In this document: positions 19,202 to 56,870 of the stretch, one piece after another
Layout: each line of letters begins with the position of its first letter
How positions within the stretch are numbered: the first letter of the stretch is position 1
Source of the DNA: a virus
Reading direction: 5' to 3' (one strand)
Length of the DNA stretch: 64,000 nt
IMG/VR virus record: IMGVR_UViG_3300048808_000008
Coordinates: 1 to 64,000 of that record
The notes under the pieces: generated by a model
Told to the model about the DNA's origin: nothing
Seen by the model: the letters and a program-made list of their open reading frames with translations, nothing else
The model's database searches: none
Translations under genes and position numbers: made by a program

Positions 19202-20284
19202 ATGGCATCTCAGCCGGGGCCGTACGGTTTTACGCAGTACCTGCAAGGTATCAATCGGCCCCAACTCAAGAAAATCTGGCGATCCTTCATTAAGCCGGGC
19301 AGCGTGTGGACACACATGCCAATGGTCAATGAAGGCTCGATGATAAAGGCTGGCAAGCGCGTGGTAGCCGGACTCCCGGTCGCGACGTTCGTGCAAGTCT
19401 CTCAAGAGCCAACTACTCCGTTCGTGCAGGATTTGGAGTCTTTTGAAGAAGGAGTCGCGCTTGCCCGCGACTTCTTCAAGATCGATGAACTCCTGCAGAC
19501 GGATAAGTGGTATATCGAGGGCAATCCGGTCGGCTTCAATTCGAAGATGTACTTCGACGGCCGAACGTTCACCCTCAATAACTACTTCTTCAATAATGAT
19601 AAGGTGCAGGGTCCGATCGCGGACGCGGGGGGCTTTGTCGGCCTGAAATACCGGCTCGCTTACCCCACCAAGTGGAAGCTCGCGCCGGGAATGAGCATTC
19701 AGGCGACCGCCGATCTCTCGGATGCCGGACTTGCCGGCACCGGAGCGATCAAGATCGCCCGTGACATACAGCGTATGCTCTCGCACTTCGGAAACGACGA
19801 CGGCAGCAACATGGTTGCGTGGGCCTCCGCGCAGTGCATGTGGCAACTTGACGCCATTGTGAAGTCCGCAGGCCAAGCGGGCGGCTTTACCACCGCCAAG
19901 GACGCCTTCGGACGAAGCATCGTCGAGTTCAAGAACCTCCGCATCGTAAGTTGCGGATTCCAACCGCCGTCTGCGACCGGGCAGCAGACAACTCCCATCA
20001 TCGCGGACTCGCAGGACGTGAACGGATGGGACGTTGGCGACGCGTCGTACACCGGAGCGGGCCTCACAGGCGCGACCGGCTATACGACGATGTTCTTCGC
20101 CCAGCTCGGCGGGAATTACCTTACGGGATGGCAGCATAGCGATCCCACGATGATTAAAGAGCGCCTGTCCGGTACTCACCAGATCGTCGGACTGTTCCAG
20201 CTCACCGCCGGGATTTTCATGGAAGACAACCGATCTATCGGCCGAATCTATGGAATCAAGGTCAACGGGCCGCTCTACGATTAA
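19202..20284 (+). CDS. Major capsid protein
   Basis: 360 residues, expected HK97-type fold; forms the head shell. Supporting signs are the position after scaffold, the family-like size, an N-terminal arm (PYGFTQYLQGINRPQLKKIW), and alternating Gly/aromatic strands with the C-terminal IGRIYGIKVNGPLYD. AAAGG lies before the ATG. No cleavable prohead protease gene is evident, apart from the possible HExxH protein at 13713. The call rests on order and character rather than an identified family. Confidence 0.8.
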   Translation: MASQPGPYGFTQYLQGINRPQLKKIWRSFIKPGSVWTHMPMVNEGSMIKAGKRVVAGLPVATFVQVSQEPTTPFVQDLESFEEGVALARDFFKIDELLQTDKWYIEGNPVGFNSKMYFDGRTFTLNNYFFNNDKVQGPIADAGGFVGLKYRLAYPTKWKLAPGMSIQATADLSDAGLAGTGAIKIARDIQRMLSHFGNDDGSNMVAWASAQCMWQLDAIVKSAGQAGGFTTAKDAFGRSIVEFKNLRIVSCGFQPPSATGQQTTPIIADSQDVNGWDVGDASYTGAGLTGATGYTTMFFAQLGGNYLTGWQHSDPTMIKERLSGTHQIVGLFQLTAGIFMEDNRSIGRIYGIKVNGPLYD

Positions 20285-20298
20285 GGAAGGGGAAGCTC

Positions 20299-20724
20299 AT
20301 GCCGTTTGAACTAAACACGTACATTTCCCCGACCACAATCACGGGGAACTATTTCAGCTCTGCATTCGACACCGGGCCGCTCGGCGGCACGGACGGCGCA
20401 GGGCAGAACTTCGGGATTCTGGTCACAGGCGTGATCGGAAACCCGAATGCGCTATTCCAAATCCAGACAAGTGCCGATGGCCTTAACTGGGTTCTGTGCG
20501 CATCGGACGATCTTGGTCCGGTGAACGCAATCGGAACGCGCAACATCCACTTCGCGACGGACAACGAATACTGGCGATTGGCCGTGCTCTGGCAAGAGCA
20601 GCCCAGCGGCGGCGGGAGCAATAACAGCTCTTCGTTGTCGAGTCAGGTATTCAATAGCTCCAGCTCCGGCGGGAGCGCAAGCCTCACATTCAGTGGCGGC
20701 CTCACCCCCAGCAACAGAGGGTAA
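20299..20724 (+). CDS. Putative head decoration/surface protein
   Basis: 141 residues of beta-type sequence with a Ser/Gly/Asn-rich C-terminal 35 residues. Residues 26-95 (GPLGGTDGAGQNF...SADGLNWVLCASDD...ATDNEYWRL) parallel residues 46-120 of the 20806 protein, so the two share a domain. GGAAGGGGAAG precedes the start. Being next to the capsid gene suggests a virion surface role. Confidence 0.65.
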   Translation: MPFELNTYISPTTITGNYFSSAFDTGPLGGTDGAGQNFGILVTGVIGNPNALFQIQTSADGLNWVLCASDDLGPVNAIGTRNIHFATDNEYWRLAVLWQEQPSGGGSNNSSSLSSQVFNSSSSGGSASLTFSGGLTPSNRG

Positions 20725-20805: not shown

Positions 20806-22113
20806 ATGCCATATCCAATAGCCGTCGTCGACGGAACCGATAACACCGTCATTTCTTACTTCTCCGGCGCGGTTCCGGTCGATCCGAACGTGACGGTCGT
20901 CGTCAACCTGAATGGCTACACGTCGAATGTGATCGACATGGGGCCTCGCGGAAATACGGACGGCGCAGGCGTCAATGTCCGTGTAGACGTACAAAAGCTG
21001 AATGGCCTTAACCAAGTACAGTTCTTCATTGAAACGAGCGATAACGGGATAGACGGCTGGAACCTGTGCGCGGCCGACGATACAGTGGCCTTCGTGACTG
21101 GCCCAGTCGAATTGCTCATCCACTTCGAGACCGACCGGAGATTTTTTCGTCTCGCGTGGAGTGGTCAGGACGCTCCGGACGCAGAACTCAGCCCTGCAGT
21201 AATGCCTCTCTGGATTGAGATACCGATGCAGCCGCCGCCAGGATCTTACCAGGCGATTACTGCGCCCACCCCCTACACAAATAGCGTCAGTACTACATAC
21301 CAGAGCGGCAGTGGCACGACGGATACGGTCGCTCTGACAATCCGAGGGATTGTTGAGTTAAAAGGGACAACCGGCGGTTCTGTCGTGCCCGGCTCGGGCG
21401 GCAGAGCGAAGGTTGGGGCAACGCTTGACGATAACAGCAATAACATCTTTGAATTAGTGATCTCCGCTCCGGCCGCGACGGTGGTGCTAAACTGCGGCAC
21501 GGCGGGCGTAGACTCCGATTGCGTCATCTTGGACTATACCGGGGAGTTTTCCATCACCGATGGGGCGACTGTTACACTCTCGGCCAACTCGGTTGACGAT
21601 GGCTCCAACTATTCTCAGGGTCCGTTTGCGGTTCCGACCGGTTTCACGCCGCCGAGTGGGGTGAACGTACCGCCCGACGACGGCGAGTATCTACAGGTTG
21701 ACGGCTTCCCCGAGGTTTACTCGACTCTGCCAAACTATCCGGCAGGTAATTACGCACTGTCTTATCTCTTCGGCTGCTTCAACTTCGGGCCGCTGCCGTC
21801 TGAGGCGGGCTCGTGGAGCATTCAAACGAACGTGACGAATGGCACGACAGTTGAAGGTTACGCGCCATTCGGAGTTCCGCCGCCGCCATACGAGCTCCAT
21901 AACCCATGGAACTTCTCCGAAGCGACTGAACAGGCGTACTGGGCTGGGCTACTCTTACCGTTCACTCACGCGGGCGGCCCAATTGGGGTACAATGCGGTG
22001 ATCCATTCACTGGGGACAACACGGAAGGATCTCCGCCGACTACGTGGGCGCTCCGGAGTGAAACCGAAGTCACATTCTCTTGGTCTTACGCGGTCTCGAA
22101 TCGCGGCCTGTAA
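20806..22113 (+). CDS. Putative virion surface protein, paralogous domain
   Basis: 435 residues, beta-rich, low in Lys/Arg. Its N-terminal domain (GPRGNTDGAG, IETSDNGIDGWNLCAADD, FETDRRFFRLAW) is related to the 141-residue neighbour upstream. The rest contains Thr/Ser/Gly-rich strands and PPDDGEYLQVDGFPEVY. Likely a larger decoration or head-fibre protein. The stop codon lies directly at the border of the TnpB element, so the true C-terminus in relatives without the element might differ. No good ribosome site is seen. Confidence 0.65.
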   Translation: MPYPIAVVDGTDNTVISYFSGAVPVDPNVTVVVNLNGYTSNVIDMGPRGNTDGAGVNVRVDVQKLNGLNQVQFFIETSDNGIDGWNLCAADDTVAFVTGPVELLIHFETDRRFFRLAWSGQDAPDAELSPAVMPLWIEIPMQPPPGSYQAITAPTPYTNSVSTTYQSGSGTTDTVALTIRGIVELKGTTGGSVVPGSGGRAKVGATLDDNSNNIFELVISAPAATVVLNCGTAGVDSDCVILDYTGEFSITDGATVTLSANSVDDGSNYSQGPFAVPTGFTPPSGVNVPPDDGEYLQVDGFPEVYSTLPNYPAGNYALSYLFGCFNFGPLPSEAGSWSIQTNVTNGTTVEGYAPFGVPPPPYELHNPWNFSEATEQAYWAGLLLPFTHAGGPIGVQCGDPFTGDNTEGSPPTTWALRSETEVTFSWSYAVSNRGL

Positions 22114-22116
22114 ACA

Positions 22117-22145
22117 ACCCCCCGCTAAAGCAGGGGGCTTTGCCA
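22117..22145 (-). ncRNA. Putative reRNA (omega RNA) scaffold at the tnpB right end
   Basis: In known TnpB systems the guide RNA is the 3' end of the tnpB transcript through the right-end hairpin, with the guide being the next 15-20 bases outside the element. Here that would place the guide in the antisense of the last codons of the 20806-22113 gene. The hairpin is seen; RNA production and guide function are inference. Confidence 0.4.
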
Positions 22146-23231
22146 CTAACCGCAAGCGGTTGCGACTTTAGGGCCGTTTACTTGGCCCCGTGCCCGGATA
22201 TTCAGCGCCGCGTTGTCGTCGGCGTTGATCTCCAGGCCACAAGAAAGGCATTGGAATTGGGACTGGCTTCGACGATTGGCGCGATCGCAGTGGCCGCAAG
22301 CGGAACAGGTCCGGCTTGTGCCCCTCGCCTCGACGTACACGACCGGCACGCCTGCGCGCGCCGCCTTGTAAACGACAAACTGCTTCAATTCGTCAAAAGC
22401 CCAATTGCCCAGTTGCCAGCGCATGTCCCGGTTAAAAGCCGAGCCTCGCTCTCGAATCCCCTTCAGGTCTTCGAGAGCGATTGCCTTGCGGGAGGAACGC
22501 GCGGTCTGGACGATTGCCTTACTGATGTTGTGGTTGACCCACTTCGAGAAACGGGAGACCTTGCGGGCCACCTTCTTGAGCGTGCGTTTTGCGCGCTTCG
22601 AGCCGCAAGATTGAAGTCCGCGACGGTGTTCGCGCCGTTTGCGCCGGGCACTGCGGATCGGCTCTCCCGCGTACCGGTTTCCTTCGCTGTCCACGGCGAC
22701 GTTGACCAGGCCGAGATCGACGCCGAGCACGCCGTCCGTCTCGATCAGGGGCGGATCGGGAAGGCTTATCGTCGCAAGCAGGTAAAAGTTTCCGCCGACA
22801 AAGGCCAGATCGCTTTCGCCCTGCCGGAAGACGAGAAGCCCGCGCTGATAGTCGCCGCACGCGAACGGGATCTTCATGCGGCCGTCCACGGTCCAGATCG
22901 ACACCTGCCCGCGATCGACATACCAGTTGACGATTCGGTCGTCGTAAGCGATCGCGCCGAGCGGGGCAAAGAACCGCTGCGCGTCGTGGTCGAGCTTGTA
23001 GGCGTCGGCGACCTTGCCAATGCACCGGACAACCACCTGGGCCGTAAGGCCCGATTCGGCCCGCTGAACGGCGTATTGAGCGCGGTGCAGCGGATATTGG
23101 CCGAACGTCTTATTCTCCCACGCCCACGCGGAAATACTGTCGCAAACAGTGTTCGCGGCCTGCATCGTGCGCTTCAGGGCGTCGCGCTGCTTAGGCGTCG
23201 TTACCAGCTTGACCTGTGCTGTAAGTTTCAT
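22146..23231 (-). CDS. tnpB: TnpB-family RNA-guided endonuclease
   Basis: 361 residues from ATG 23231. All three RuvC acidic residues are visible: GVDLGLVNVA (Asp about 172), IALEDLKGI (Glu about 254) and NADDNAALN (Asp about 338/339). The target-nucleic-acid-binding zinc finger is complete, with CSACGHC and CLSCGL (about 309-331). The N-terminal OrfB helix-turn-helix part is present, so the gene looks intact. TnpB proteins cut DNA next to a short motif under guide of an RNA from the element's end. A TTGACG/TATAAT promoter sits just upstream, giving a nearly leaderless message. Confidence 0.92.
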   Translation of the reverse strand: MKLTAQVKLVTTPKQRDALKRTMQAANTVCDSISAWAWENKTFGQYPLHRAQYAVQRAESGLTAQVVVRCIGKVADAYKLDHDAQRFFAPLGAIAYDDRIVNWYVDRGQVSIWTVDGRMKIPFACGDYQRGLLVFRQGESDLAFVGGNFYLLATISLPDPPLIETDGVLGVDLGLVNVAVDSEGNRYAGEPIRSARRKRREHRRGLQSCGSKRAKRTLKKVARKVSRFSKWVNHNISKAIVQTARSSRKAIALEDLKGIRERGSAFNRDMRWQLGNWAFDELKQFVVYKAARAGVPVVYVEARGTSRTCSACGHCDRANRRSQSQFQCLSCGLEINADDNAALNIRARGQVNGPKVATACG

Positions 23232-23240
23232 CCTGTTGAC

Positions 23241-23270
23241 ATTATACCCGACGAAACGGGGAAGCGTCAA
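23241..23270 (-). promoter_or_regulatory. Promoter of tnpB
   Basis: Minus strand TTGACG (23270-23265), 18-base spacer, TATAAT (23246-23241). The -10 is only nine bases from the tnpB ATG. Confidence 0.75.
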
Positions 23271-23380
23271 CATCTACCTTATCTGCTTGGGCAGCTCCTC
23301 CCCTCCCTAAAGGGACCGATAACCCGGCAACCTGCCGGTAAGGGGTTTCCGCTGCCGATTGGAATCGTAAGGGATTATCG

Positions 23381-24040
23381 ATGATCCACTTAAACTCAGT
23401 CACGCTCTACACGATTCAGACGGTTCCGATTCAGACAACCGACGCGAATCCTCCCGCGAGCCATGCGGCGAACCAGAGGGCTGTTCAGTTGTGTCAGCGC
23501 GGACTAACGTATCGGGATACGGTTGCATTCGTGGATAACCCTGTTGGCTATGAAGACATCGCAACCGAGATCGTGAATATCCCGCAGTTCCCGAACTACC
23601 GCGATGTTTGTCCGTTCGTGCTCACGAAGTTGCCCGATCTCATACTCCCGCTCATGGGGAGCCATGCGTTGAAGTGCGAATGGGACGGTTTCGTTCTCAA
23701 TCCGAAATGCTGGACAGATGATTTCTTGGAGTGGGACTACATCGGGAGCCCATTTTTCGGCCATACTGTAGGCAATATGGGATTCTGTCTTCAGTCGCAG
23801 CGATATTTCAAAGCATTGAAGGAGCTAAACTTGCCGGCGACCGAGTTTGCCTGTTATCCGAGCGACCAGAAGATTTGTATAGAAAACAGGGCGAATATGG
23901 AGGCGCTAGGCGTTCGGTTTGCGCCGGTGGAACTTGCGAACCGCTTCGCGCGGGAGAACAGTCCGCCGTACGGAACGGAAACACTGGGAGGGCACGGGCG
24001 CCTATTCCTGGCTGACGTTGCGCGGCAGGGAAGGTATTGA
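23381..24040 (+). CDS. DUF5672-like putative glycosyltransferase
   Basis: 219 residues. CEWDGFVLNPKCW, FLEWDYIGSPF and VGNMGFCLQSQRY are the successive signatures of DUF5672, a GT-A-type family found in phages and sugar-modification clusters. AAGGGA precedes the ATG. First of four adjacent sugar- or methyl-transfer genes inside the virion cluster; they may decorate capsid or fibre proteins or host surface sugars. The substrate cannot be told. Confidence 0.8.
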   Translation: MIHLNSVTLYTIQTVPIQTTDANPPASHAANQRAVQLCQRGLTYRDTVAFVDNPVGYEDIATEIVNIPQFPNYRDVCPFVLTKLPDLILPLMGSHALKCEWDGFVLNPKCWTDDFLEWDYIGSPFFGHTVGNMGFCLQSQRYFKALKELNLPATEFACYPSDQKICIENRANMEALGVRFAPVELANRFARENSPPYGTETLGGHGRLFLADVARQGRY

Positions 24041-24044
24041 TGAT

Positions 24045-24650
24045 ATGCCTGGCAGTGAGTGGATGCCGAGACTTAATCCGGGGCAGAGTGTACCAAACAC
24101 TCTTGAAGAGTGGTATGAGCTTGCCTGTTCACCAGTTTACGCGGATTCGGGCATCCAGAAGCACTTGGCGTGTTTAAGCCGATATGCGGGTGTGTCAAAA
24201 CATGTCGTAGAGCTTGGCACGGGAGGCGGCGACCAATCCACTCTCGCCCTGCTCATTGGGAATCCAAAATCTCTTGACTGTTTCGATATAAGTCCACCAG
24301 GATCCCTGCCGACCATTGAACGACTTGCAGACGAAAGCGGAGTGGCCTTCGAATTCCACTGTGAGGACACGACCAAGGCGGAAGGTATTCAGTCCGATCT
24401 GCTTCTTGTCGATTCTTTGCACACGGCTGCGCAGGTGGAGGCCGAACTCGCCATCTTTGCGCCGCTATGCAGTAAGCGCATAGTCTTTCACGATGTTATC
24501 AGCTTCGGAGATCACGGCCAGACGGATAAACCCGACCAGGGCATCAACTTGGCGATAGCACGGTTTTTATATAAACACCCCGAGTGGAGCGTCGAGCGAT
24601 ATTCAGAAGAGGACAACGGACTTCTGACACTGCGGCGCGGATGCACATGA
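24045..24650 (+). CDS. Class I SAM-dependent methyltransferase
   Basis: 201 residues. Motif I VVELGTGGGDQSTLA near 58-72, an acidic second strand (LDCFDIS) and LLLVDSLHT as the post-I/IV region indicate a Rossmann methyltransferase, close to the Methyltransf_24 type seen in sugar clusters. Among glycosyltransferases it probably methylates a sugar; protein methylation is an alternative. Start chosen with GGAAGG upstream. Its TGA overlaps the ATG of a short remnant reading frame. Confidence 0.8.
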   Translation: MPGSEWMPRLNPGQSVPNTLEEWYELACSPVYADSGIQKHLACLSRYAGVSKHVVELGTGGGDQSTLALLIGNPKSLDCFDISPPGSLPTIERLADESGVAFEFHCEDTTKAEGIQSDLLLVDSLHTAAQVEAELAIFAPLCSKRIVFHDVISFGDHGQTDKPDQGINLAIARFLYKHPEWSVERYSEEDNGLLTLRRGCT

Positions 24651-24715
24651 GAACAGTAGTCCCGGAAAACAACCTATCTGTTATCAGTGTGTTAACAGTT
24701 AACGGAACCTTATGA
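24647..24715 (+). pseudogene. Remnant of a duplicated glycosyltransferase start
   Basis: 22 codons beginning MRTVVPEN; the next gene begins MRTIIPEN, and the DNA around both starts is nearly the same. The frame continues SVISVLTVNGTL, typical of a family-2 glycosyltransferase first strand, then stops, overlapping the next start by four bases. It looks like a second glycosyltransferase gene lost by internal deletion, or a short translated leader that keeps coupling. Confidence 0.6.
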
Positions 24716-25536
24716 GAACAATCATCCCGGAAAACCCTAAGATCGGAATCTGTTTGGCGACTCACGCAGCCGTTCCATATATCGACACGGGCCTAGCTTG
24801 CCTCAGACGGCACGAGCCGCAAATAAAAGTGCTCGTGCATGACGATTTTTCCAACGACCGGCTAAAACTCAACCTCTTGTGCGACAAGTACGGGGCCGAT
24901 TTCTTTACCACGGAGTACCGCAAAGTCGAGACTGTCGGGGACTTGTCCAGCTTTGCCGAAGCCCTCCGGTGGGGACAGGAAAACAATCTCGATATTGTCG
25001 TGAAGTGTTCGCGCAGGTTCATTGCGGATCGTCCGTGGTCCTCTGAGCTTGCGAACCTGATGCACTCCACGCAGTATGTGACCGCGACTGGGCACACCCC
25101 TGAATTTGGCTTTGGCTTTCGGTCCGAGTGGGTCGCCATGCACGTTCCGACATGGGTAGGATGCGGTGCGTACGCGGCGATGGCTGAAACGGCGAGGCAG
25201 AATCAATACTACGATCCGCTTCCCGAAGCGTGGTATCACCATCGGGCGCGGCAGGCACACGCCTTCGCCCATCCACAGGATGAGCCGACGTGCCATCAGA
25301 ACAATTCCAATCATCCAGACTGTGATTTTCTGGTGATGAGCGAAAGCAGGTTCGCTAGGCCCGCGACGTGCGATGCGTACATTTGGTTCGCGTCCTTGCT
25401 TGGACTGGCGCGAAAGCAGATCGTTCCGAACGTCTATTGGCACGATTCTAGGACGCCATTCGATTACTTCCAGCTTGCCAAGAAGTACGATCTCTGTTAT
25501 GAGCCGGCCGAATTCATGATCACTCCAGGAGAATGA
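24712..25536 (+). CDS. Glycosyltransferase family 2-like protein
   Basis: 274 residues. N-terminal IGICLATHAAVPYIDTGLACL and VLVHDDFSND resemble the GT-A nucleotide-sugar site, with the DD near residue 44; LDIVVKCSRRF follows at about 93. The C-terminal half is His/Trp-rich and not family-typical. Start overlaps the remnant frame (ATGA) and its own end overlaps the next gene, so it is part of a tight operon. Confidence 0.7.
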   Translation: MRTIIPENPKIGICLATHAAVPYIDTGLACLRRHEPQIKVLVHDDFSNDRLKLNLLCDKYGADFFTTEYRKVETVGDLSSFAEALRWGQENNLDIVVKCSRRFIADRPWSSELANLMHSTQYVTATGHTPEFGFGFRSEWVAMHVPTWVGCGAYAAMAETARQNQYYDPLPEAWYHHRARQAHAFAHPQDEPTCHQNNSNHPDCDFLVMSESRFARPATCDAYIWFASLLGLARKQIVPNVYWHDSRTPFDYFQLAKKYDLCYEPAEFMITPGE

Positions 25537-26621
25537 GGCAACTTATCCTCGATCACCGGACGGCAGCAGGCGATATCGTCGTTCTTACCGCCGCAATCAG
25601 GGCGCTTCACGATACGCACCCCGGCTTGTTTGAAACGGACTATATAGGCGTCCATTCCCGCTTCTCCGACGGCAACAACCTATTCGCCGGGAACCCGTAC
25701 ATCACCGAGCTATATAAGGGCGATCCGAACGTCAATCAAGCCAACTGCTGTGCGGGAATTCCTTACCTCATGGTCGAATACGGGCGCGGCGGTCGGGGCG
25801 TGAACGGATGCGGGCGGCCGTTCCACTTCCTCTCGGCGTTCGTAGAGGACTTGAGCCAGATGCTCGGCGTCTACATCGAGCTGAAGGAGTTCCGACCCGA
25901 TCTCTACCTGTCCGACGAAGAACGTGAGCCGTGGCCCGGACTGCCGGAAAAGTACATCGTGATCGACGCCGGGACGAAGCGCGACATGACTACGAAGGGA
26001 TGGAGCGTCCATCGCTACCAGCAGGTGGTAAACACGCTAAAGGACCGCATAGCATTCGTGCAGGTGGGTTCTGCCGTAGATTTGCACCCGGCACTGGAGA
26101 ACGTGGTCAACTTGGTCGGGCAAACGAGCCTGCGGGATCTGATCCGCGTCATCTCGCGGTCATCGCTCGTGCTTACCCCGATCTCGTTGCCGATGCACCT
26201 ATGCGCGGGCGTGCCATTTCCGGACGAACCTAATCCGTTGGCGCCACGCACGGTTGCAGAGCGGCACAAGTACCGTACGCAGGTTCTCTTGGCGCAGCGG
26301 GCACAAGGAATGCGGCCTCCCGACATCCCCGAGATACCGCAGCGTAGAAACCGGCCGTGCGTAGTCCTTGCGGGACAGCGTGAACCTCGCCATTGGGAAC
26401 AGTATCCCGCGCATACCCATCTCGGCACGGAAGGGCATCTTGTTTGCGGCGTACTTCCTGGAAACGGATGCTGGCGTAACAAGACAGTGCGGATAGAAAA
26501 CGATACAGACACATCGGTGTGCTTCCGCGCTATGCAGGATGAAGCAGGCCAGTGGGTTCCCGAATGTCTTCACCGAGTATCCGTAGAGGACGTGGTTCGC
26601 GCAATCGAAGTGTGGCTATAA
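25533..26621 (+). CDS. Glycosyltransferase family 9-like (heptosyltransferase fold)
   Basis: 362 residues. GDIVVLTAAIRALHDTHPG at the N-terminus, YIVIDAGTKRDMTTKGW in the middle and VGQTSLRDLIRVISRSSLVLTPISLPMHLCAG near 205-230 follow the GT-B order of family 9 enzymes. Usual family activity is transfer of heptose or a related sugar to lipopolysaccharide core. The C-terminal 110 residues carry several Cys and are not standard. Start overlaps the upstream stop by four bases. Confidence 0.78.
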   Translation: MRQLILDHRTAAGDIVVLTAAIRALHDTHPGLFETDYIGVHSRFSDGNNLFAGNPYITELYKGDPNVNQANCCAGIPYLMVEYGRGGRGVNGCGRPFHFLSAFVEDLSQMLGVYIELKEFRPDLYLSDEEREPWPGLPEKYIVIDAGTKRDMTTKGWSVHRYQQVVNTLKDRIAFVQVGSAVDLHPALENVVNLVGQTSLRDLIRVISRSSLVLTPISLPMHLCAGVPFPDEPNPLAPRTVAERHKYRTQVLLAQRAQGMRPPDIPEIPQRRNRPCVVLAGQREPRHWEQYPAHTHLGTEGHLVCGVLPGNGCWRNKTVRIENDTDTSVCFRAMQDEAGQWVPECLHRVSVEDVVRAIEVWL

Positions 26622-26622
26622 C

Positions 26623-27354
26623 ATGACAGGAACAGACTTCATCGCCGCCGGCCAACTTCGACTCAGAGAATCGCTGAGTACGTCGGCCATGCAACAAGCC
26701 CAACTTTGGCCTCGCCATGTGCGCCGCGCGGCCAACGATGTTGCAAAGCTCACGTGGTCCCTACAAAGGACCGCGACCATAGACGTTGTGGCGAATCAGG
26801 TTCAGTATACGATGCCGTCACGCATGTTCTACGTGAGCACGGTTTGCGTAAACGACGGTTTCGGCAACATCTGGCCACTTGGTTCCTCGAACGAGGCCCT
26901 GGCGGACAACCAACTTTGGAACTGGCGCGCGAGTGGGAATGTCACAGGGCCGACCTATCAGGGGGTGCCTTCCGCGTGTATTGTCGAGGGACTGCAGACA
27001 TTTAAGCTCATTCCGGTACCGAATTATTCGGTTGAGGACGGCTTGATTGTTGGCGGCTACTTCGGTGTGGACAAATGGTGGAGCATGTCCGACGAATGCC
27101 CACTCCCGGACGACGAAGAGTACAACGAGGCCGTCGAGGTCGGCGCGTGCTATCGGCGCTGCATGGAGATGAAGTCGGTCGATCCGCTATACGCGGCCGG
27201 GGCAGTCGATTATAAATTGCAGGCCGACGAGATCATACGCAACCTCTATCGCCAGTCCACGACGGCCAACCAGTCGCGGCGCGATGGCACGATACCCTCT
27301 CTTGGAAACCGGATGGGCAATTGGGGTGCGGCCGGATGGAACTGGGTGGGATAA
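26623..27354 (+). CDS. Putative head-tail adaptor (neck) protein
   Basis: 243 residues. A helical N-terminus (LRESLSTSAMQQAQLW...RAANDVAKLTW) is followed by strand-rich TATIDVVANQVQYTMPSRMFYV and an acidic helical end, the general layout of portal-side adaptors. It starts the second structural run after the sugar genes. The family is not certain. Confidence 0.5.
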   Translation: MTGTDFIAAGQLRLRESLSTSAMQQAQLWPRHVRRAANDVAKLTWSLQRTATIDVVANQVQYTMPSRMFYVSTVCVNDGFGNIWPLGSSNEALADNQLWNWRASGNVTGPTYQGVPSACIVEGLQTFKLIPVPNYSVEDGLIVGGYFGVDKWWSMSDECPLPDDEEYNEAVEVGACYRRCMEMKSVDPLYAAGAVDYKLQADEIIRNLYRQSTTANQSRRDGTIPSLGNRMGNWGAAGWNWVG

Positions 27355-41645: not shown

Positions 41646-43942
41646 TGGCGAATAACCCCACGCAGCCCGGACCTCCGCAGCCGCCCCAGGTAACGATCGT
41701 TGCGCCGAAGCCCACACCCAATCCGCAGATGAAGCAGCGGCCAATGGGTGTGCCTGTCGTTCCGCCCAAAGCAGATACTTCCGGCGGCACAAGCGGCAAT
41801 GCGCCTGCTCCTCCTAGCCCCTCGGCTCCCTCAACTCCCGCTTCAACAGATGCGCAGTCCATCTTCGGAGTGCCGATTGCGGGCGCTCCAATGACAGACG
41901 CGCAGATTCCTATCTTCAGCGGCCCGAATGATCTCATCCAGTGGGAGAATGTCTCGGGGGACATTGCCCTGTCGGACACAGGCCTTGCGACCGTGCAGGG
42001 CTTCGAGAACGTGCCGCTCAAACCAGGCGCTCCCACGGACGGCGAGTACTACGCTTACAAAGCCGCCGATAGCGAGTTCGAGCTTACGGCGCCTGACCAC
42101 AAGGTCTTAGTCGACTCCTCCGATACGACGCCGGGATACCTGAACGCAAAGATCGACGTTACGCTCCCCCTCACAAGCGCAGTCGGAACGCCATCAGGTA
42201 ATGAAACTGTCAATCTGGCCGTCAACGCCGCAACCACTGCAGCAACCGGAGTTGTCCAGCTCGAATCCTCATCCTCTGACACTTCTGCTTCTCACGTAGT
42301 GACTGCGAACGATACGCGGTTATCCAACTCACGGACACCAACTGGAAGCGCGGGCGGCGACCTCGGCGGCACGTATCCAAATCCTACCGTGCTCTCCGTG
42401 GCCGATGTGACGACTGGCGTTCTCGCGGCCGGGAACGGGGGAACAGGTTCTTCGACAGTTCCGACATCCGCGCAGATTCCAATCGGTAATGCCGGTGGCA
42501 CGGCGTATGCCCCCACGACGGTGAGCGGAGATGCTACGCTGTCGAACACAGGGGCCGTCACGCTTGTGAATACAGCAGTTACCCCCGGCAACTACACCAG
42601 CACAAACCTAACGGTCGATTCAAAAGGGCGCATCACGGCAGCGGCGAACGGCAGCGGTGGCGGGATAACCGCTCTCACGGGCGATGTGACGGCAACTGGT
42701 TCCGGCTCGGTCGCCGCTACGGTCGCCAAGGTGGGCGGTCAGGCGATCTCCGCGATAGCGGCAGGCGACCTCTTGATGGGCAGCGGGTCCGGCGCGCTGA
42801 ATCGGTTCCCGATCGGCACTGCCGGGCAGGTCCCCGTTGCCACCGGCGGCCTGTTGGTATACACTTCCCTCAACACGCTGGCCGCAGGCGATCAGCTCTT
42901 ATTTGCGATCACTTCGACTTCCTCCCTCACCAACACGGTCACTTCCAAGCAGTCCTTCACAATGTCGCCGAGCTGCACGATCCCGGCGAATCAACTTGCG
43001 GTCGGACAGCAGATAGAGTTCATCGGTGCGCTCTCGATCACCAGTTCGGCGCTGTCTTTGCCGAATGTGACGTACGAACTGGATTTTGGCGGAACGGCGG
43101 TTGCGACGTTCCCGGCTACGGCTATGGCGGCTTCGCTGTCCAGTGGTCCGGCGCAGATACGCATCATCGGAACCGTGCTGACAACCGGCAGCTCCGGAAC
43201 GATTCGATTTGACGGGGCGATCATCGTTCAGGGCGCAACTTCTACGACGCCCGAGCTTATCCCGCTTACGTCTGTCTCGGCGACCGTCAATACGACGACC
43301 TCCAACGCCGTGACGATGGCGCTCACCTTCTCTTCAACGACCCAGCCGAACACGACGGTGCTGACGCAGTTCGGCGGCGTGCTGCATGCGGCGGCGGGGA
43401 CAAGTGTCGCCCCTGGTAACGGCAATATGGCATGGAATGTCTCGGGTTCGGTTCAGTCGGATAACAGCGTACAGGTCGCAGTAACTGCTGGGCATCCTGT
43501 ATTCGGAACAACTAATTTCGCCCTCACATCGGCCACAGCGATACAGTTTCAGGCGTACTTGAAGAAGTCGAGCGCAGGTAGCAACACGGGCCTCGGTATT
43601 GGATACATCTCGGGCGGTAACTACAACGCCTATGTATTCGTGTGGAATTCCGGGGCGTTCAGCGGCTGCAGCCTATACAAGGAAGTGGCGGGCACGTTGA
43701 CAGAAATCGCATCCGGCACCGGACCCGCCAACGACACCGGGTTGCACAAGATACGGATGGTTATACTGCCCAGCTCGACGGCGGGTAATTACATCAGCCT
43801 ATACTTCGATGACGTACTGGTTCTGAAAAACTTCAACGACAGTTCTCTCAACCTGTTGGCACAAAACGCAAACCTTGGCACCTACAACGACACCGGAACG
43901 AGCCTTTATTATGATCCGTGGTATCGAATTGGGGCGCTCTAG
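41645..43942 (+). CDS. Tail fibre protein
   Basis: 765 residues with a GTG start sharing a base with the upstream TAG. A Pro-rich first 60 residues is followed by typical fibre repeats: HVVTANDTRLSNSRTPTG, GTYPNPTVLSVADVTTGVLAAGNGGTGS and LTVDSKGRITAAANG. The last 200 residues form a beta sandwich resembling a concanavalin-type lectin fold (ALTSATAIQFQAYLKKSS, HKIRMVILPSS, YISLYFDDVLVLKNF). Probable receptor-binding protein. It ends 4 bases inside the converging SGNH gene. Confidence 0.85.
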   Translation: MANNPTQPGPPQPPQVTIVAPKPTPNPQMKQRPMGVPVVPPKADTSGGTSGNAPAPPSPSAPSTPASTDAQSIFGVPIAGAPMTDAQIPIFSGPNDLIQWENVSGDIALSDTGLATVQGFENVPLKPGAPTDGEYYAYKAADSEFELTAPDHKVLVDSSDTTPGYLNAKIDVTLPLTSAVGTPSGNETVNLAVNAATTAATGVVQLESSSSDTSASHVVTANDTRLSNSRTPTGSAGGDLGGTYPNPTVLSVADVTTGVLAAGNGGTGSSTVPTSAQIPIGNAGGTAYAPTTVSGDATLSNTGAVTLVNTAVTPGNYTSTNLTVDSKGRITAAANGSGGGITALTGDVTATGSGSVAATVAKVGGQAISAIAAGDLLMGSGSGALNRFPIGTAGQVPVATGGLLVYTSLNTLAAGDQLLFAITSTSSLTNTVTSKQSFTMSPSCTIPANQLAVGQQIEFIGALSITSSALSLPNVTYELDFGGTAVATFPATAMAASLSSGPAQIRIIGTVLTTGSSGTIRFDGAIIVQGATSTTPELIPLTSVSATVNTTTSNAVTMALTFSSTTQPNTTVLTQFGGVLHAAAGTSVAPGNGNMAWNVSGSVQSDNSVQVAVTAGHPVFGTTNFALTSATAIQFQAYLKKSSAGSNTGLGIGYISGGNYNAYVFVWNSGAFSGCSLYKEVAGTLTEIASGTGPANDTGLHKIRMVILPSSTAGNYISLYFDDVLVLKNFNDSSLNLLAQNANLGTYNDTGTSLYYDPWYRIGAL

Positions 43943-44649
43943 TGTGAGGCCATTTTGGCCGAGATCGTATCGGCAATCTTCGCGTATCCAGGAGGAAGCG
44001 GGTGCAGCCCATCGCTTAGGTCAGCCGTGGTAATCCCTGCATCGTGGTATATGTCCACGAAATAGATCGTGTGGCCTAGCGCGCCCCAGTGCGAGACAAT
44101 TCCAGGCAGTATCGCGTTGAAAGTCTCTTCCTGCGCTCTCGTGAACAGTTTGTTGGTCGCGTTGTGGCCTACCGGAACCAATGAGCACAGGTACACAGTG
44201 GCGTTCGGATCGGCTCGGAAGATGTCGCCAATCAGAGTATTCATTCGGGATTCGGCGGTCGCAGTGCTTGCCCCTTCCCGAAGATCGTTAGCGCCCGCCA
44301 ATACGATTACCGATTGCGGTTGCAACCTGAGCACGTCGGCCTTCGCGTGTGCGTCAATTTGATCTATCCGCAAGCCGTCCCAGCCATCGTGCTTCATTCC
44401 AAAAGAATCGGTCAAAGCGCCGACGTAATCAATCGAGATTCCGCGAACTTTGAGATCGGTTATAAGTGGCCCGCGATAACCAGGCGTGTGCGTTCCAGGG
44501 GAATTGTCGGGCCTTCCGACGTAGCCTTCAGTGATACTGTCACCCAGAGGCATAACGCCCTCCGCCATAGTTGCGTCACTGGACGGCGCTTGCCCGTACG
44601 CCTTCGCCGAAAGCAGGCAGAGGGCGAAGATTGCAGTGAGGAGTTTCAT
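43939..44649 (-). CDS. Exported SGNH/GDSL-type hydrolase
   Basis: 236 residues. Signal peptide MKLLTAIFALCLLSAKAYGQA, then block I GDSITEG (nucleophile Ser), block III AGANDL and the C-terminal DGLHP with Asp and His: a complete SGNH catalytic set. Family members are esterases, often removing acetyl groups from sugars or cell wall. GGAAGG precedes ATG 44649. The export signal is unusual for a virion part and suggests action in the periplasm or outside. Last gene of the operon from the promoter at 46720. Confidence 0.88.
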   Translation of the reverse strand: MKLLTAIFALCLLSAKAYGQAPSSDATMAEGVMPLGDSITEGYVGRPDNSPGTHTPGYRGPLITDLKVRGISIDYVGALTDSFGMKHDGWDGLRIDQIDAHAKADVLRLQPQSVIVLAGANDLREGASTATAESRMNTLIGDIFRADPNATVYLCSLVPVGHNATNKLFTRAQEETFNAILPGIVSHWGALGHTIYFVDIYHDAGITTADLSDGLHPLPPGYAKIADTISAKMASH

Positions 44650-44665
44650 TGGTTCTAATCCTTCC

Positions 44666-45349
44666 TTAGACAGCAAGCATCTTCTCCACAAGTTCCGCAA
44701 AGGCCAGTCGGGCGGACTCGGCGTTGCACAATCGAGCGTACTTGGCGGACTTGGCGGCGTACTTACAGGCGTTGCGTGCGTGCGCAGCAGCAGCGGTGTG
44801 ATCGAGGTTATTTCTGTCGTACCTTGATATGTACTCAGCTGCGTAGAATGCGGAGTACCGCGCGTACTCGCAGGCGCTCCATGTTTTGTACGGGGCAGTG
44901 CAACTGACGGCGTACTTGGCTGAAGACAAGTTAATAATCTCGGGCAAATCTCGCAGGTCTTTTGCCTCAGCCATCAGCTTTTCATTTTCGAGTTCGATGG
45001 CTGCAAATCTGCGCACGGCATAATCTGCGCACAGTAACATCCGTGGCGGCTCTTTACTGTGGTCTCTTGTGCCGATAACTCGCGGGATGAACGGCTTGAG
45101 CCAAGCGTCTCTGGCTTTATCGCTCGGAAGAGAATCGTTCATAGCAACGAATAGTGCTGTTATTACGCGACACACGCAATGAGGCGCATGAGACCAGGGC
45201 TCGCCTGCGATGTACGCGGCAGCCTCGAGAGCGCACATCTCAAGTTCGGTGTGAGTTGTCTGGTTGGGCGGAAGGTGGGATCCTATTTTCAGGGACACTG
45301 CCTCAAACTGCGCGAGGCGTTCCGGGTTGATTGTTGGTGTTTCGGTCAT
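44666..45349 (-). CDS. Hypothetical Ala/Tyr-rich helical protein
   Basis: 227 residues. The C-terminal half repeats short AxYA/AxxA helices (SAKYAVSC, CEYARYSAFYAAEYIS, NACKYAAKSAKYARLC), a pattern seen in some phage and immunity-like proteins of unknown role. AAGGAAA precedes the start, which overlaps the upstream stop by four bases. Confidence 0.7.
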   Translation of the reverse strand: MTETPTINPERLAQFEAVSLKIGSHLPPNQTTHTELEMCALEAAAYIAGEPWSHAPHCVCRVITALFVAMNDSLPSDKARDAWLKPFIPRVIGTRDHSKEPPRMLLCADYAVRRFAAIELENEKLMAEAKDLRDLPEIINLSSAKYAVSCTAPYKTWSACEYARYSAFYAAEYISRYDRNNLDHTAAAAHARNACKYAAKSAKYARLCNAESARLAFAELVEKMLAV

Positions 45350-51642: not shown

Positions 51643-51643
51643 T

Positions 51644-51714
51644 GAGGGCGTGGCGTAACGGTAGCGCAGCGGACTCCAAACCCGCCGGTTCCGGTCCGAA
51701 TCCGGGCGCTCTCG
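51644..51714 (+). tRNA. tRNA-Trp (CCA anticodon)
   Basis: Folds as a cloverleaf: acceptor GAGGGCG/CGCTCTC with one G-T pair, D-arm GCG/CGC around AACGGTAG, anticodon stem GCGG/CCGC with loop CTCCAAA (anticodon CCA), T-arm around TCCGAAT, discriminator G. The anticodon stem's last pair is A-C and the T-arm has a T-G pair, so it is somewhat weak. CCA is not encoded (TGG follows). Confidence 0.82.
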
Positions 51715-51723
51715 TGGTATAAT
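51715..51723 (+). promoter_or_regulatory. Extended -10 promoter motif, second copy
   Basis: CGTGGTATAATC as at 48415. It overlaps the end of the tRNA gene by position and has no -35. Would feed the gene at 51854, but a terminator at 51761-51787 lies between. Confidence 0.35.
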
Positions 51724-52562: not shown

Positions 52563-53945
52563 TTAGAGGCAGTCGCGGAGTCCTTCCATTATCCTCTGAC
52601 TTAGCAGACACGGTACGGCATTGCCAATAATCGCGGACGCCAACAGTCTCCGCTCCGGCAGTCTGTACCAATCCGGGAACGTTTGGAACCGCGCGAGGCA
52701 GCGGATATCGAGCATGACCACGCGGCCCTGACTGAGCCATGCCCGGACCGGCCGCTTCGTACTGCTCGCGCCTACCGTAAAACAGGGCTCGTCGGCGTCC
52801 GCCGTCGTCATATCTTCGCCTCTGTTGTTTGTCGTTCCGTTGGCAAGAAACGCCCTCGGCGGACTTCCCCCGCCGCGCACGGTCGTCGCGGGCGTGTCTC
52901 CGTCCGGCGTCTGCAATCCGTGATCCGTGCCCGACTGATCGTTGGCAAGAAACGCCCTTGTACGTCCCGGCGCATTCCCTGCGACCGAAAAAGCCGGTTC
53001 CTCTCCGTCTCGCTGATTGTCGCCCCAACTCTTTTCGTTGGAGTTAGGCGCGACAAGGAAGGCGCGGGGATAGGTCCCGCCGCCCATACTGTTGACAGTA
53101 TTCGCCGGCGATTCCTTTTCGAGCACACCCGTGCCGGACGGATTGGCGAGCTGCGTGTTGCCGGTCATGTGGAGAAAGGCGCGGGGTTGACTGGCTGCAC
53201 GCCGCCCACATTGAGCGCCTGTCAATGTAAATATGGGCTCGTCGGTCTGCCTCACAGTGGCGTCTCTTGCGGTTGAACACATATCGGCCACAAATGTCGT
53301 GCTGTACTCGGCGGGAAGTCTTTTAAGTTGCCAGTCAGCGAACTCGCTGTCCTTCAACCCCGGCAGTAAATCCTCTATCGCCGCATACCAGCCGATGTGC
53401 TTGACCGGCTGCGGCAACGGCGGTACAAGCCCGTCGCGAACCGCACGAATAATTAAGCGGCGGCGTGATTGTGGAACGCCCATGTCGGCCGAATTTACAT
53501 TGTTCGCCGTGTGAAAGTATCCGAGTTCGGACAGGCATCGCTCAATCAGCTTACACGCCTCGAACACCCGGTACTGCGTCACGTTCTCCATGACAAATAT
53601 CTTTGGCCGCACAATTCTGAGCCAATTGCAGACGCCCTGCGCGGCCCGTATGTCGATCTCGCGTTCCCCCCGGTTCGGATTGGCGATAGAAGCCGCTGTA
53701 CACACAGGGGAGGCCCAGAGCGCATCGACGCCGGCAAAGGGAGTAGGGTCAGCGCATTCGACACGATCGACGATCACGTGATCTCCGATGTTGTCTGCGT
53801 ATGCGCTGGCAATCGCATCCGGACCGCCGAGTTTCGGCAATACGTTCCACTCCACCGCGCCGACCGGTTGGAATCCGGCCGCAATTGCGCCGAGGTCGGC
53901 CCCGCCGCCGCCCGCAAAGAGGGATACCCAGGTTGGTTTGTTCAA
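52563..53945 (-). CDS. DNA (cytosine-5) methyltransferase with a repeat-built recognition region
   Basis: 460 residues. Motif I FAGGGGADLG (10-19), motif IV SPVC (catalytic Cys about 82), motif VI MENV (119-122), motif VIII QSRRR (159-163) and C-terminal motif X IGNAVP are in order, so it should be active; SPVC instead of PPC is an uncommon form. The region from about 255 to 410 consists of four related units, each ending near RAFL or RAWL with a D/G-rich turn and PAxTV or PAFSV. Likely protects phage DNA from host restriction. No matching endonuclease gene is adjacent. Confidence 0.9.
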   Translation of the reverse strand: MNKPTWVSLFAGGGGADLGAIAAGFQPVGAVEWNVLPKLGGPDAIASAYADNIGDHVIVDRVECADPTPFAGVDALWASPVCTAASIANPNRGEREIDIRAAQGVCNWLRIVRPKIFVMENVTQYRVFEACKLIERCLSELGYFHTANNVNSADMGVPQSRRRLIIRAVRDGLVPPLPQPVKHIGWYAAIEDLLPGLKDSEFADWQLKRLPAEYSTTFVADMCSTARDATVRQTDEPIFTLTGAQCGRRAASQPRAFLHMTGNTQLANPSGTGVLEKESPANTVNSMGGGTYPRAFLVAPNSNEKSWGDNQRDGEEPAFSVAGNAPGRTRAFLANDQSGTDHGLQTPDGDTPATTVRGGGSPPRAFLANGTTNNRGEDMTTADADEPCFTVGASSTKRPVRAWLSQGRVVMLDIRCLARFQTFPDWYRLPERRLLASAIIGNAVPCLLSQRIMEGLRDCL

Positions 53946-54136
53946 GTTTTCGCCTCTCCCTCAAGTCCTTCCGCCGCCTTCCTCTTCAGCTTCTTTATCC
54001 CACCGCTCGCCACGATCCGGTCATGCACGGTCGGCGGCCAGCATCCGCGCTCAACCTGATACGGCGCGGTCCTGCCTTCCGGGCGATCCGTCAGCTCGGA
54101 GGACATGCGGCGCGAGTGTTCACTGGAGGTAATCAT
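53942..54136 (-). CDS. Small basic protein upstream of the C5 methyltransferase
   Basis: 64 residues from ATG 54136, with GAAGGAG eight bases before. Its stop overlaps the methyltransferase start (ATGA). Polar and basic, with YQVERGCWPPTVHDRIVASGG. A 15-codon frame (54133-54180) overlaps its start and may couple translation from the gene upstream. Function unknown. Confidence 0.55.
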   Translation of the reverse strand: MITSSEHSRRMSSELTDRPEGRTAPYQVERGCWPPTVHDRIVASGGIKKLKRKAAEGLEGEAKT

Positions 54137-54199
54137 AGTCCGCACTCCTTCTCTGCGAACCGTTGGGCTGTCATGCTCATAGCCGTCTCAATGCCTCCG

Positions 54200-55150
54200 T
54201 TATCTCGCCTCCATGAGGTCAAGCAGGTTCGGCGTATCGGATTCAGCCTCGGCCTCAAGCAGCAGCGCACTGGACCACTCAAAGTAGCTCTCTTTAAGTT
54301 CGATCCCGATGTATTTGCGTTTCATTTTGAGTGCCATATATCCGGTCGATCCGATCCCACTGAACGGGTCTAGTACCACGTCGCCAGGATTAGAGCGAAG
54401 CTCTATACATCGCTCAATCACGTCAAGCTGGAGCGGGCAAATGTGCCTTTCGTCCTCGCCGTCACGAGCCATTCTGTGATTGAGAACGTGCGTCTGCCGA
54501 ATATCATCCCAAACCGGAGAAGCCCATTTCTGCCACTTTTCAAGCGGGAAGTCCTCGCGCGTGTGGAAAACGGGATCGGGGAACGAGAGAAGATCGTTAT
54601 CCCCGCTGCCGACAGGCCACTTGCGGAATGAGAGCAGATAATCTGCCATTCCGGCACGCGAACAGCAGGAATCGGCCCTCAGGTTCTTATAAAGAAGCCC
54701 GTGATTTTTCGTCCTCTGCATCTCAATCACAGGGTCTTTCCAGATGGTCAGTCTCGAATGGTATGCCCATCCGCAGCCAACAAAATTGCGGATTATATCG
54801 CCGGGGAAGTCGTATAGTCCGGCCGATCCGTCACGGCCCTTATAGGTCGGCAGGTCCTTGCAGTGAATATCGACCAATCGACCCGGAATAGTCACTCGCA
54901 GGAGCTCTTTGATCGCAAACCGGAAGTGATCGAAGAACTCGGCATGATCCTTGCAGTTCCCCATATCGTTTTGGGAATCGCTGTAGATGTAGAGATTAGC
55001 GAATGGGAGGCTCGTCACGGTTAGGCCGACCGATTCGTCGGGCAATCCGCGCATGACCTCTATGCAGTCGCCAAGGTACAGAACGTGGTTTTTGCCGACC
55101 GACTGATCGTTAACAAGACCTTCTGGAATAACTTCTATGTGTTGAGCCAA
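54200..55150 (-). CDS. DNA N4-cytosine/N6-adenine methyltransferase
   Basis: 316 residues in the permuted order, catalytic motif first: TSLPFANLY near 46-54 (variant of TSPPY/DPPY), SAM-binding DPFSGIGSTGYMALKMKRKYIGIEL near 262-286. The FANLYIYSDS...DMGNC block is typical of phage and plasmid orphan methyltransferases. SLPF in place of SPPF/SPPY is unusual, as the second Pro is kept but the first is Leu. Start overlaps the end of the helicase gene by 16 bases. Confidence 0.85.
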   Translation of the reverse strand: MAQHIEVIPEGLVNDQSVGKNHVLYLGDCIEVMRGLPDESVGLTVTSLPFANLYIYSDSQNDMGNCKDHAEFFDHFRFAIKELLRVTIPGRLVDIHCKDLPTYKGRDGSAGLYDFPGDIIRNFVGCGWAYHSRLTIWKDPVIEMQRTKNHGLLYKNLRADSCCSRAGMADYLLSFRKWPVGSGDNDLLSFPDPVFHTREDFPLEKWQKWASPVWDDIRQTHVLNHRMARDGEDERHICPLQLDVIERCIELRSNPGDVVLDPFSGIGSTGYMALKMKRKYIGIELKESYFEWSSALLLEAEAESDTPNLLDLMEAR

Positions 55151-56529
55151 TTAGGAACCTCCATCTTTCGTGTGGGCGCGTAGGCTACGAGCCGCTTGCT
55201 CGAAATATCGGATAACTGCGTTTCGCGCATGGCCTGGATCATAGCCGCCTTCATGCGCGTATGATCTCGCTCCTTGCGCCTCACTGCGTCAAGTATGGCC
55301 GTCTCGGTATCGGCCATCACTATATGGGCGAAAACCGGCCTGGTTTGGCCGTACCTATAATTCCGCCGAACGGCCTGGTAAAGCTGCTCAAAGCTGTAAG
55401 ACAGCCCGACAAAAGCAGAATTGGCCGAGTGCTGCCAATTCATTCCGAATCCCGTAATCGTCCCCTTGGTTATGAGTAAGCGTGATTGGCCGGAAGAGAA
55501 AGCCATGAGCTTCGACTCCTTGGCTTCTACGCTCTCGTTCCCGCGAATCTCAATCGCTTCGGGAATGGCGGCCTTAAGCGCGTCGGCCTCGTAATTCGTG
55601 TTGCACCATATCGGCCATGCCTCATTAGGCCCCGACGACGCTACGATCTCGGCGACCTTCGCCGCGCGTTGCTCGCATGTGATTCGCATTTCCCTATGCA
55701 GAGTGGTCGCCGACAGGCTCACGGAGCGGAAGAGTTGATCTTCGGCAGCGCCGACTGTGTGATCGGTAGAAACGATGTGACGAACGTATTCTAGTGGCGG
55801 CAAGATAAACCCATCATCCGAATAACCAATATCGGACGGCTTATCTAGGGCAATTGCCCAAGAGGATACCCAGCGCCAAAAATCATTTTCGCCATGCCGC
55901 TTCAGCCGGTACGCCCCGGCCTCCATCGTGTCGTTTATGAACCAACGCATAATCATTTCATTGGCAGGCATGATGCCGAGAAACGCGGCCTGGTTGCCCA
56001 GTTCGAGGAAGTCGTTTGGGCTTGGCACCGCAGTGCAGGCGAGCCTGAACGGTGTCCGCGCGAATGCTGAAATTATCCGTTGCTTCGTTTTGCCCATGAA
56101 GTTCTTTAGTATCGCGCTCTCATCCAATACGACCGCGACGAATCGTTCGGGGTCGAAATGCTCAAGCATCTCATAGTTGGCGATATTGACACCGGGTCGC
56201 ACGTCCTTCTGAGAACGGCAGACAGTCACCGGAATCCCAAACTTCTCACCCTCGCGTTTGGTTTGCGCGGCCACGGCAAGCGGTGCAAGATTCAGCACGT
56301 CTTTATTCGTGCGCTCGTAAACAGCCTGGGACCAAGCCAATTCCATCAGCGTCTTGCCGGTTCCGCATTCGGAGAAAATCGCCGCTCGCCCGAGCCGGCA
56401 CGCCCATGAAACGATATGCGCCTGAAATGGAAATAGGTTCGGATTCAAGCTGTCCGGGGCAATCTCGAATCCCTGTTCCGGCGCGTGCTTACGCTTCCCC
56501 GCCAAAAACCGCTCGTACTCATCGTTCAC
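55135..56529 (-). CDS. SNF2/DEAD-like phage helicase
   Basis: 464 residues with a GTG start that overlaps the upstream TGA and has GGAG seven bases before. Superfamily 2 motifs: Q/phosphate loop SECGTGKTLME (I), VVLDESAILKN (II), TAVPSPN (III), LLITKGTITGFGMNW (V) and QAVRRNYRYGQTRPV (VI). It is a translocase or helicase, probably in replication, recombination or modification together with the methyltransferases beside it. Confidence 0.88.
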   Translation of the reverse strand: MNDEYERFLAGKRKHAPEQGFEIAPDSLNPNLFPFQAHIVSWACRLGRAAIFSECGTGKTLMELAWSQAVYERTNKDVLNLAPLAVAAQTKREGEKFGIPVTVCRSQKDVRPGVNIANYEMLEHFDPERFVAVVLDESAILKNFMGKTKQRIISAFARTPFRLACTAVPSPNDFLELGNQAAFLGIMPANEMIMRWFINDTMEAGAYRLKRHGENDFWRWVSSWAIALDKPSDIGYSDDGFILPPLEYVRHIVSTDHTVGAAEDQLFRSVSLSATTLHREMRITCEQRAAKVAEIVASSGPNEAWPIWCNTNYEADALKAAIPEAIEIRGNESVEAKESKLMAFSSGQSRLLITKGTITGFGMNWQHSANSAFVGLSYSFEQLYQAVRRNYRYGQTRPVFAHIVMADTETAILDAVRRKERDHTRMKAAMIQAMRETQLSDISSKRLVAYAPTRKMEVPNWLNT

Positions 56530-56870
56530 GTCATATCTCCATTCTCGTAAACTCTCACCATAGCCGCGCTTTGGTAGACCTGAATACCACGATCTTTGCA
56601 CAGCGCGACCTCGGCTTTCGATCCGGCCGAATGTTCCCATCCCGCGAGCGTCACGGCGAAGTCACAACGTTTCAACATCTCCACGTCGCCTTCTAGGAAC
56701 ACTTCATCGGGCACAATTCCTCCGAGTAGTGCGGTATTCTTGTGCGGGCAAAGAACTGCAATTCCATTGCGCCACAATTCTATTGCGACCGCCTCCGCTG
56801 CCCTGATATTCTCAACCACGCCATGCTCGGAAGTCGCGCGGTAAGGACCGATAATATAAGCCAGTCTCAT
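56526..56870 (-). CDS. DUF4406/nucleoside deoxyribosyltransferase-like protein
   Basis: 114 residues. AYIIGPYRATSEHGVVENIRAAEAVAIELWRNG, CPHKNTALLGG and a terminal GWEHSAGSKAEVALCKDRGIQVY follow DUF4406, related to nucleoside 2-deoxyribosyltransferases. May act on nucleotides; the usual catalytic Glu is not certain. Confidence 0.85.
   Translation of the reverse strand: MRLAYIIGPYRATSEHGVVENIRAAEAVAIELWRNGIAVLCPHKNTALLGGIVPDEVFLEGDVEMLKRCDFAVTLAGWEHSAGSKAEVALCKDRGIQVYQSAAMVRVYENGDMT

Follow-up and report, generated by a model that had tools for sequence, protein, structure and literature searches.

The stretch of DNA analysed here, termed the window, comprises the first 64,000 nucleotides of IMG/VR virus record IMGVR_UViG_3300048808_000008, which is 70,917 bp long. 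Antisense to a run of late genes, it carries a solitary tnpB gene lying between two ends of the IS200/IS605 type (Table 1). As judged from the sequence, the locus clearly holds an intact TnpB, both transposon ends and an omegaRNA with a covarying pseudoknot, with boundaries at 22110-23380 beside a TCAT motif. No match to the Y1 transposase (PF01797) was found in the 70,917-bp record, which may be a fragment, in line with the absence of a transposase reported in a first-pass annotation of the window. A tnpB without tnpA, bounded by two subterminal hairpins, is the arrangement seen in the IS1341 group. We consider it probable that this is a TnpB-only IS200/IS605 element of that group, living in the phage as an RNA-guided homing element.

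The longest tnpB open reading frame (ORF), at 22146-23273 on the minus strand, encodes 375 amino acids. Its true start is likely Met15 at 23231, because relatives begin there, a predicted promoter directly precedes it, and residues 1-12 of the AlphaFold2 model are disordered, with a predicted local distance difference test score (pLDDT) below 50 compared with 87 for the model. The ORF matches the Pfam families Cas12f1-like_TNB (75.8 bits, cutoff 26.3) and OrfB_IS605 (36.8 bits, cutoff 30.5), as well as solved Cas12f/TnpB chains (best E 2e-26). Residues D186, E268 and D352 correspond in the alignment to the RuvC residues of AsCas12f1, and the CxxC..CxxC cysteines C323, C326, C342 and C345 to the finger; all seven are invariant across 30 aligned sequences, the window TnpB and 29 relatives. 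The model matches AsCas12f (E 5e-20) and ISDra2 TnpB 8h1j (E 3e-14) and 8exa (E 5e-11). The D-E-D triad and finger thus stand at the positions expected of the TnpB nuclease family, and alignment, Pfam and fold all agree with the earlier claim of an intact protein with three RuvC acidic residues and a complete zinc finger. A domesticated regulator like phage-encoded TldR, which would use an RNA guide to bind DNA but not to cut it, is a highly improbable identity for this protein: TldRs have lost the RuvC acidic residues, and all three are kept here and in the 29 relatives. Related phage tnpB copies are, by the ratio of nonsynonymous to synonymous substitution (dN/dS, 0.06-0.17), under purifying selection. 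The promoter of its own that had been claimed for tnpB is predicted with a -10 box ending 9 nt before the Met15 ATG. A -10 box in this position appears to be a family trait, with at least five of six matches 3-16 nt from the tnpB start in 79 of 140 relatives and in 10% of shuffled sequences. The predicted promoter and its placement point to a near-leaderless tnpB mRNA.

The ends were compared with those of relatives collected from IMG/VR, where this TnpB group is common in phages (at least 541 matches in one scan); three scans with alignments yielded 236 loci. Left and right ends were recognised by pattern rules of our own. The left-end hairpin of the relatives consists of an outer helix, GGAA...AGGA, an inner CCC/GGG pairing and a CTTTAG loop, and after their right-end hairpin comes a hexamer, for example GTTGAC or GTTTAC. 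Among 74 unique insertions, TCAT or TCAC (TCAY) is concentrated 10-14 nt ahead of the outer helix of the left end, with 77 occurrences at 8-31 nt from the helix versus 12 at 44-67 nt. Copies of the same element at different sites share their sequence from TCAC inward and diverge outside it. We place the boundaries of the window element on the basis of the TCAY position in relatives, the right end defined by the pseudoknot, and the reconstructed empty site; this corrects the extent of 22114-23355 given earlier. Two other left boundaries were rejected. A transposon-associated motif (TAM) TTAC at 23370-23367, with the empty junction CCT/GTAAGGG, conflicts with the TCAY of the relatives and with a left-end start homologous to CGATAATCCC, and TTAT at about 23325 would sever the conserved outer helix. 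Multi-copy relatives on Meiothermus and Bacteroides plasmids were uninformative for boundary mapping.

Table 1. Features of the TnpB-only element and its insertion site (window coordinates)
Feature	Coordinates	Strand	Remarks
Whole TnpB-only IS200/IS605 element	22110..23380	-	1271 bp; left end 23380, right end 22110
tnpB coding sequence from likely start Met15	22146..23231	-	361 aa; longest ORF extends to 23273
Predicted sigma70-like promoter TTGACG-18-TATAAT	23241..23270	-	11/12 matches
Left-end hairpin: outer helix GGCAGC/GCTGCC, GGAA..AGGA, CTTTAG loop	23290..23356	-	architecture shared with relatives
Predicted omegaRNA stem-loop GGGCC-AAGTAAAC-GGCCC	22171..22188	-	loop GTAAAC (22181-22176) is one pseudoknot strand
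Right-end terminal hairpin AGCCCCCTGC-TTTA-GCGGGGGGTT	22116..22139	-	conserved in relatives
Right-end hexamer GTTTAC	22110..22115	-	second pseudoknot strand; last element bases before guide; covaries in relatives
Predicted guide AGGCCGCGATTCGAGACCGC	22090..22109	-	phage flank, antisense to end of gene 20806-22113; position by ISDra2 rule (PMC8612924)
Target/transposon-associated motif TCAT	23381..23384	-	flanks left end; complement ATGA contains downstream gene ATG
Upstream gene	20806..22113	+	435 aa; CTG TAA now, CTA TGA in reconstructed empty site
Stop codon TAA of upstream gene	22111..22113	+	supplied by element right end
Shine-Dalgarno-like TAAGGGA	23368..23374	+	in left end, before downstream ATG
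Downstream gene, DUF5672	23381..24040	+	219 aa; start codon intact at insertion point

In ISDra2 the guide is placed in the 3' flank directly after the right end (PMC8612924), and a pseudoknot lies directly before it in the solved structure (PMC10097598). The predicted omegaRNA of the window has its pseudoknot in the same place: the loop near the 3' end of tnpB pairs with the right-end hexamer, GTAAAC (22181-22176) with GTTTAC (22115-22110). Pairing of hexamer and loop is exact in 51 of 77 loci, compared with 6.3% when partners are drawn from loci with a different loop, and 17 loop types are represented; the pseudoknot thus covaries across the relatives. An Rfam search gave no match at the element.

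When the flanks are joined without the element (...CGCGGCCT/ATGATCC..., reconstructed empty junction CGAATCGCGGCCTATGATCCACTT), the upstream gene ends in CTA TGA, and its stop overlaps the ATG of the downstream gene in a 4-nt ATGA. With the element in place the upstream gene keeps its terminal leucine and a stop (CTG TAA), and the downstream ATG is untouched. The location between virion genes proposed by the first-pass annotation holds only loosely and is better described as the stop/start overlap of two late genes; the antisense orientation stands. At the empty site an ORF of 462 codons would meet one of 219. Only 3 of the 809 RTGA sites in the window, this one included, join an upstream ORF of at least 400 codons to a downstream ORF of at least 200, and a chance fit to the overlap is therefore unlikely.

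These features suggest how the element might be maintained. Transcription of tnpB would start at its own promoter, and the 3' end of the mRNA would yield an omegaRNA with the phage flank 22109-22090 as its guide. TnpB would cut phage genomes in which the junction is empty and TCAT is followed by the guide sequence, and would spare the occupied junction, where TTTAC and not ATCAT precedes the guide; repair from an occupied genome would then copy the element. RNA-guided cleavage of double-stranded DNA next to a TAM has been demonstrated for ISDra2 TnpB (PMC8612924), and a TnpB-based gene drive of insertion sequences on plasmids has been reported (PMC11870625). We favour homing because the catalytic residues are intact, the pseudoknot covaries, related phage copies are under purifying selection, and the reconstructed empty site carries a match to the guide beside TCAY. 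Of the two uses suggested earlier for the RNA-guided nuclease, homing and action against competing phages or plasmids, the first is thus the better supported and the second finds no support. A weapon of this kind could draw on the ability of TnpB to cleave double-stranded DNA (PMC8612924), and close relatives without the element would be cut, so that homing by its nature would shut out some empty siblings. The single guide, however, is identical to the adjoining 3' flank of the phage genome, neither an array nor a further guide was seen near the element (no dedicated array tool was applied), and no exact target of TAM plus 16 nt occurs in 2.9 million IMG/VR contigs; we regard an exclusion system as very improbable.

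Homing would require no transposase, though the preserved ends could serve a Y1 TnpA that acts in trans. The element might be a passive passenger, a copy without TnpA that is mobilised in this way and whose TnpB contributes nothing to its upkeep in the phage. Both ends are preserved, TCAY is the type of site chosen by Y1 transposases, and PF01797 was matched in 7 of 40 related virus records. In the record of locus L028, one of two TnpA copies lies close to tnpB (G003:36910-37269), so complete IS605-type elements also travel in phages. Against a passenger stand the dN/dS values of 0.06-0.17 between phage TnpBs of the group, the invariance of the catalytic residues in 30 sequences, and the recognition of right ends in 98 of 135 loci versus left ends in 67 of 135, although the detection rules are unequally sensitive. 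The low dN/dS and the more frequent detection of right ends favour a working nuclease, and we consider the passenger explanation unlikely. At phage tnpB loci L049, L037 and L041 the left-end hairpin was not recognised, which suggests that they have lost the ability to transpose.

The antisense of TCAY is RTGA, which would correspond to the overlapping stop and start of tandem genes, and an in-frame stop is encoded by the right end; the element would therefore be able to occupy a packed operon without breaking either gene. To assess generality we surveyed phage copies, treating unique insertion contexts as independent. In 38 of 65 unique phage insertions the RTGA is the start of an ORF of 60 codons or more (null 0.29-0.33, p 2e-5 or better). 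In 23 of 52 its TGA terminates an upstream ORF of the same minimum length (null 0.12, p 1e-8), and in 12 of 49 the motif joins two ORFs, both of at least 80 codons (null 0.025, p 2e-9). Among 101 distinct right ends, 86 have a stop within five codons in the overlap frame, whereas the counts for the two remaining frames are 5 and 34. All 37 TTAC-type right ends supply an immediate TAA. All nine ATGAC-type right ends have TAA, TAG or TGA at codon 2, and the seventh base is otherwise mostly T; the ATGAC type (8 rows) takes 8 changes on the TnpB tree, and well-supported branches require 6 or more of these. For the TGAC type, fixed hairpin geometry may account for the stop at codon 5, because the window right end also has that TAA, and the ATGAC-type pattern is the only one at the right end that argues for selection. 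A Shine-Dalgarno-like sequence in the left end is found in the window and some relatives. As a general design it was rejected, being no commoner at gene starts than elsewhere, though at least five matches occur in 20% of cases versus 4% of shuffled sequences.

The site preference is most simply explained by survival: in packed operons, few insertions other than an antisense one at RTGA leave every gene unbroken. That the right end has adapted is a further and less certain step. We put forward only tentatively, as somewhat less than an even chance, that a phage-borne TnpB lineage has adapted to the silent invasion of operons, with TCAY antisense to the RTGA overlap and the right end, a strand of the pseudoknot, selected for an in-frame stop. 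If this is true, a single short sequence has three roles, in the guide RNA, at the transposon end and in the translation of viral genes. Overlap-compatible insertion and a stop-coding right end both appear to be new, as neither was found in the literature searched, which excluded most subscription journals.

Several observations weigh against the homing interpretation or the site assigned to the element. The TCAT of the window, its nearest TCAY, lies 28 nt from the left helix rather than the usual 10-14, and the left hairpin holds an extra inserted mini-hairpin. The overlap preference, as estimated from these sequences, is a tendency and not a rule. No phage relative, either with or without the element, was recovered when the terminase, the head protein, the two flanking genes and the exact empty site were used as queries. 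IMG/VR contained no relative with an empty site, and no natural empty site was present among the fetched loci; the TCAY motif is clear across the family, but the empty site of the window is reconstructed and not observed. As for the spacing, loci L153 and L202 are likewise long-spaced, with 27 nt between TCAY and the left helix, and the start of the element is similar in L153 (CGAAAAACCCTCCGA) and the window (CGATAATCCCTTACGA), which argues for the boundaries adopted here.

The free-standing homing endonuclease genes of T4-like phages are likewise selfish, lie between phage genes and spread by cutting empty alleles. They differ from the window element in that their target is recognised by protein and not by RNA, and the nuclease families are unrelated. 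TnpB-only insertion sequences are already known in phages (PMC2853527, PMC11437467). They include the ISCaje elements of the virulent Campylobacter phages CP220 and CPt10, which resemble the window element in having tnpB alone, subterminal hairpins, a phage genome as their location and no transposase; insertion at an ATGA overlap with restoration of a stop by the right end has no counterpart in the accessible description of ISCaje (PMC2853527). TnpB genes also occur in Thermus phages (PMC11437467), and Thermus phage MN1 and Rhodothermus phage RM378 encode TnpB relatives with 34-42% identity. The Lalka TnpB copies adjoin CRISPR-like arrays (PMC11437467); none was seen near the window element, where no dedicated array tool was applied. 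ISDra2 TnpB with its right-end element RNA (reRNA) shares the RuvC domain and finger, the 3'-flank guide, the pseudoknot beside the guide and the fold (PMC8612924, PMC10097598); it differs in its TAM, TTGAT rather than the TCAY type, and the window element lacks tnpA and has a shorter distance between the pseudoknot strands. The plasmid gene drive is similar in its proposed spread through the cutting of empty copies in a multi-copy replicon (PMC11870625), whereas here the replicon is a phage and homing is predicted from sequence.

The persistence of a selfish nuclease in a viral genome that has hardly any DNA to spare has so far been poorly explained, and a motif that coincides with gene overlaps, joined to an end that restores the stop, offers a concrete and testable answer. 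For this phage the boundaries, target motif, guide and empty allele are predicted exactly, and the same rule allows hundreds of such phage insertions to be mapped. Assays of these compact TnpB nucleases can make direct use of the TCAY motif and the covarying pseudoknot.

The neighbouring genes upstream include a weak match to a major head protein (19202-20284, E 2.4e-5) and two apparently related proteins, encoded at 20299-20724 and 20806-22113 (a side search gave 42% identity across 91 aa), which may be paired decoration-type proteins. Downstream, the late module continues with a glycan-modification-like run at 23381-27354: DUF5672 (23381), a methyltransferase-like gene (about 24044-24650, weak match), a glycosyltransferase of family 9 (25533-26621) and then an SU10-type adaptor (26623-27354). 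This run is possibly a virion glycosylation cassette.

Elsewhere in the record, a GDSL-type lipase/esterase gene (43939-44700, minus strand) directly follows the large tail-side ORFs. A minus-strand cluster at 52563-56640 contains a helicase and two genes resembling DNA methyltransferases, divided otherwise than the fused PHROG profiles that they match. A DUF5131 protein (PF07505, 178 bits) is encoded at 59365-60285 in the early, minus-strand region, and a tRNA-Trp (anticodon CCA) at 51643-51715 is the only RNA gene found.
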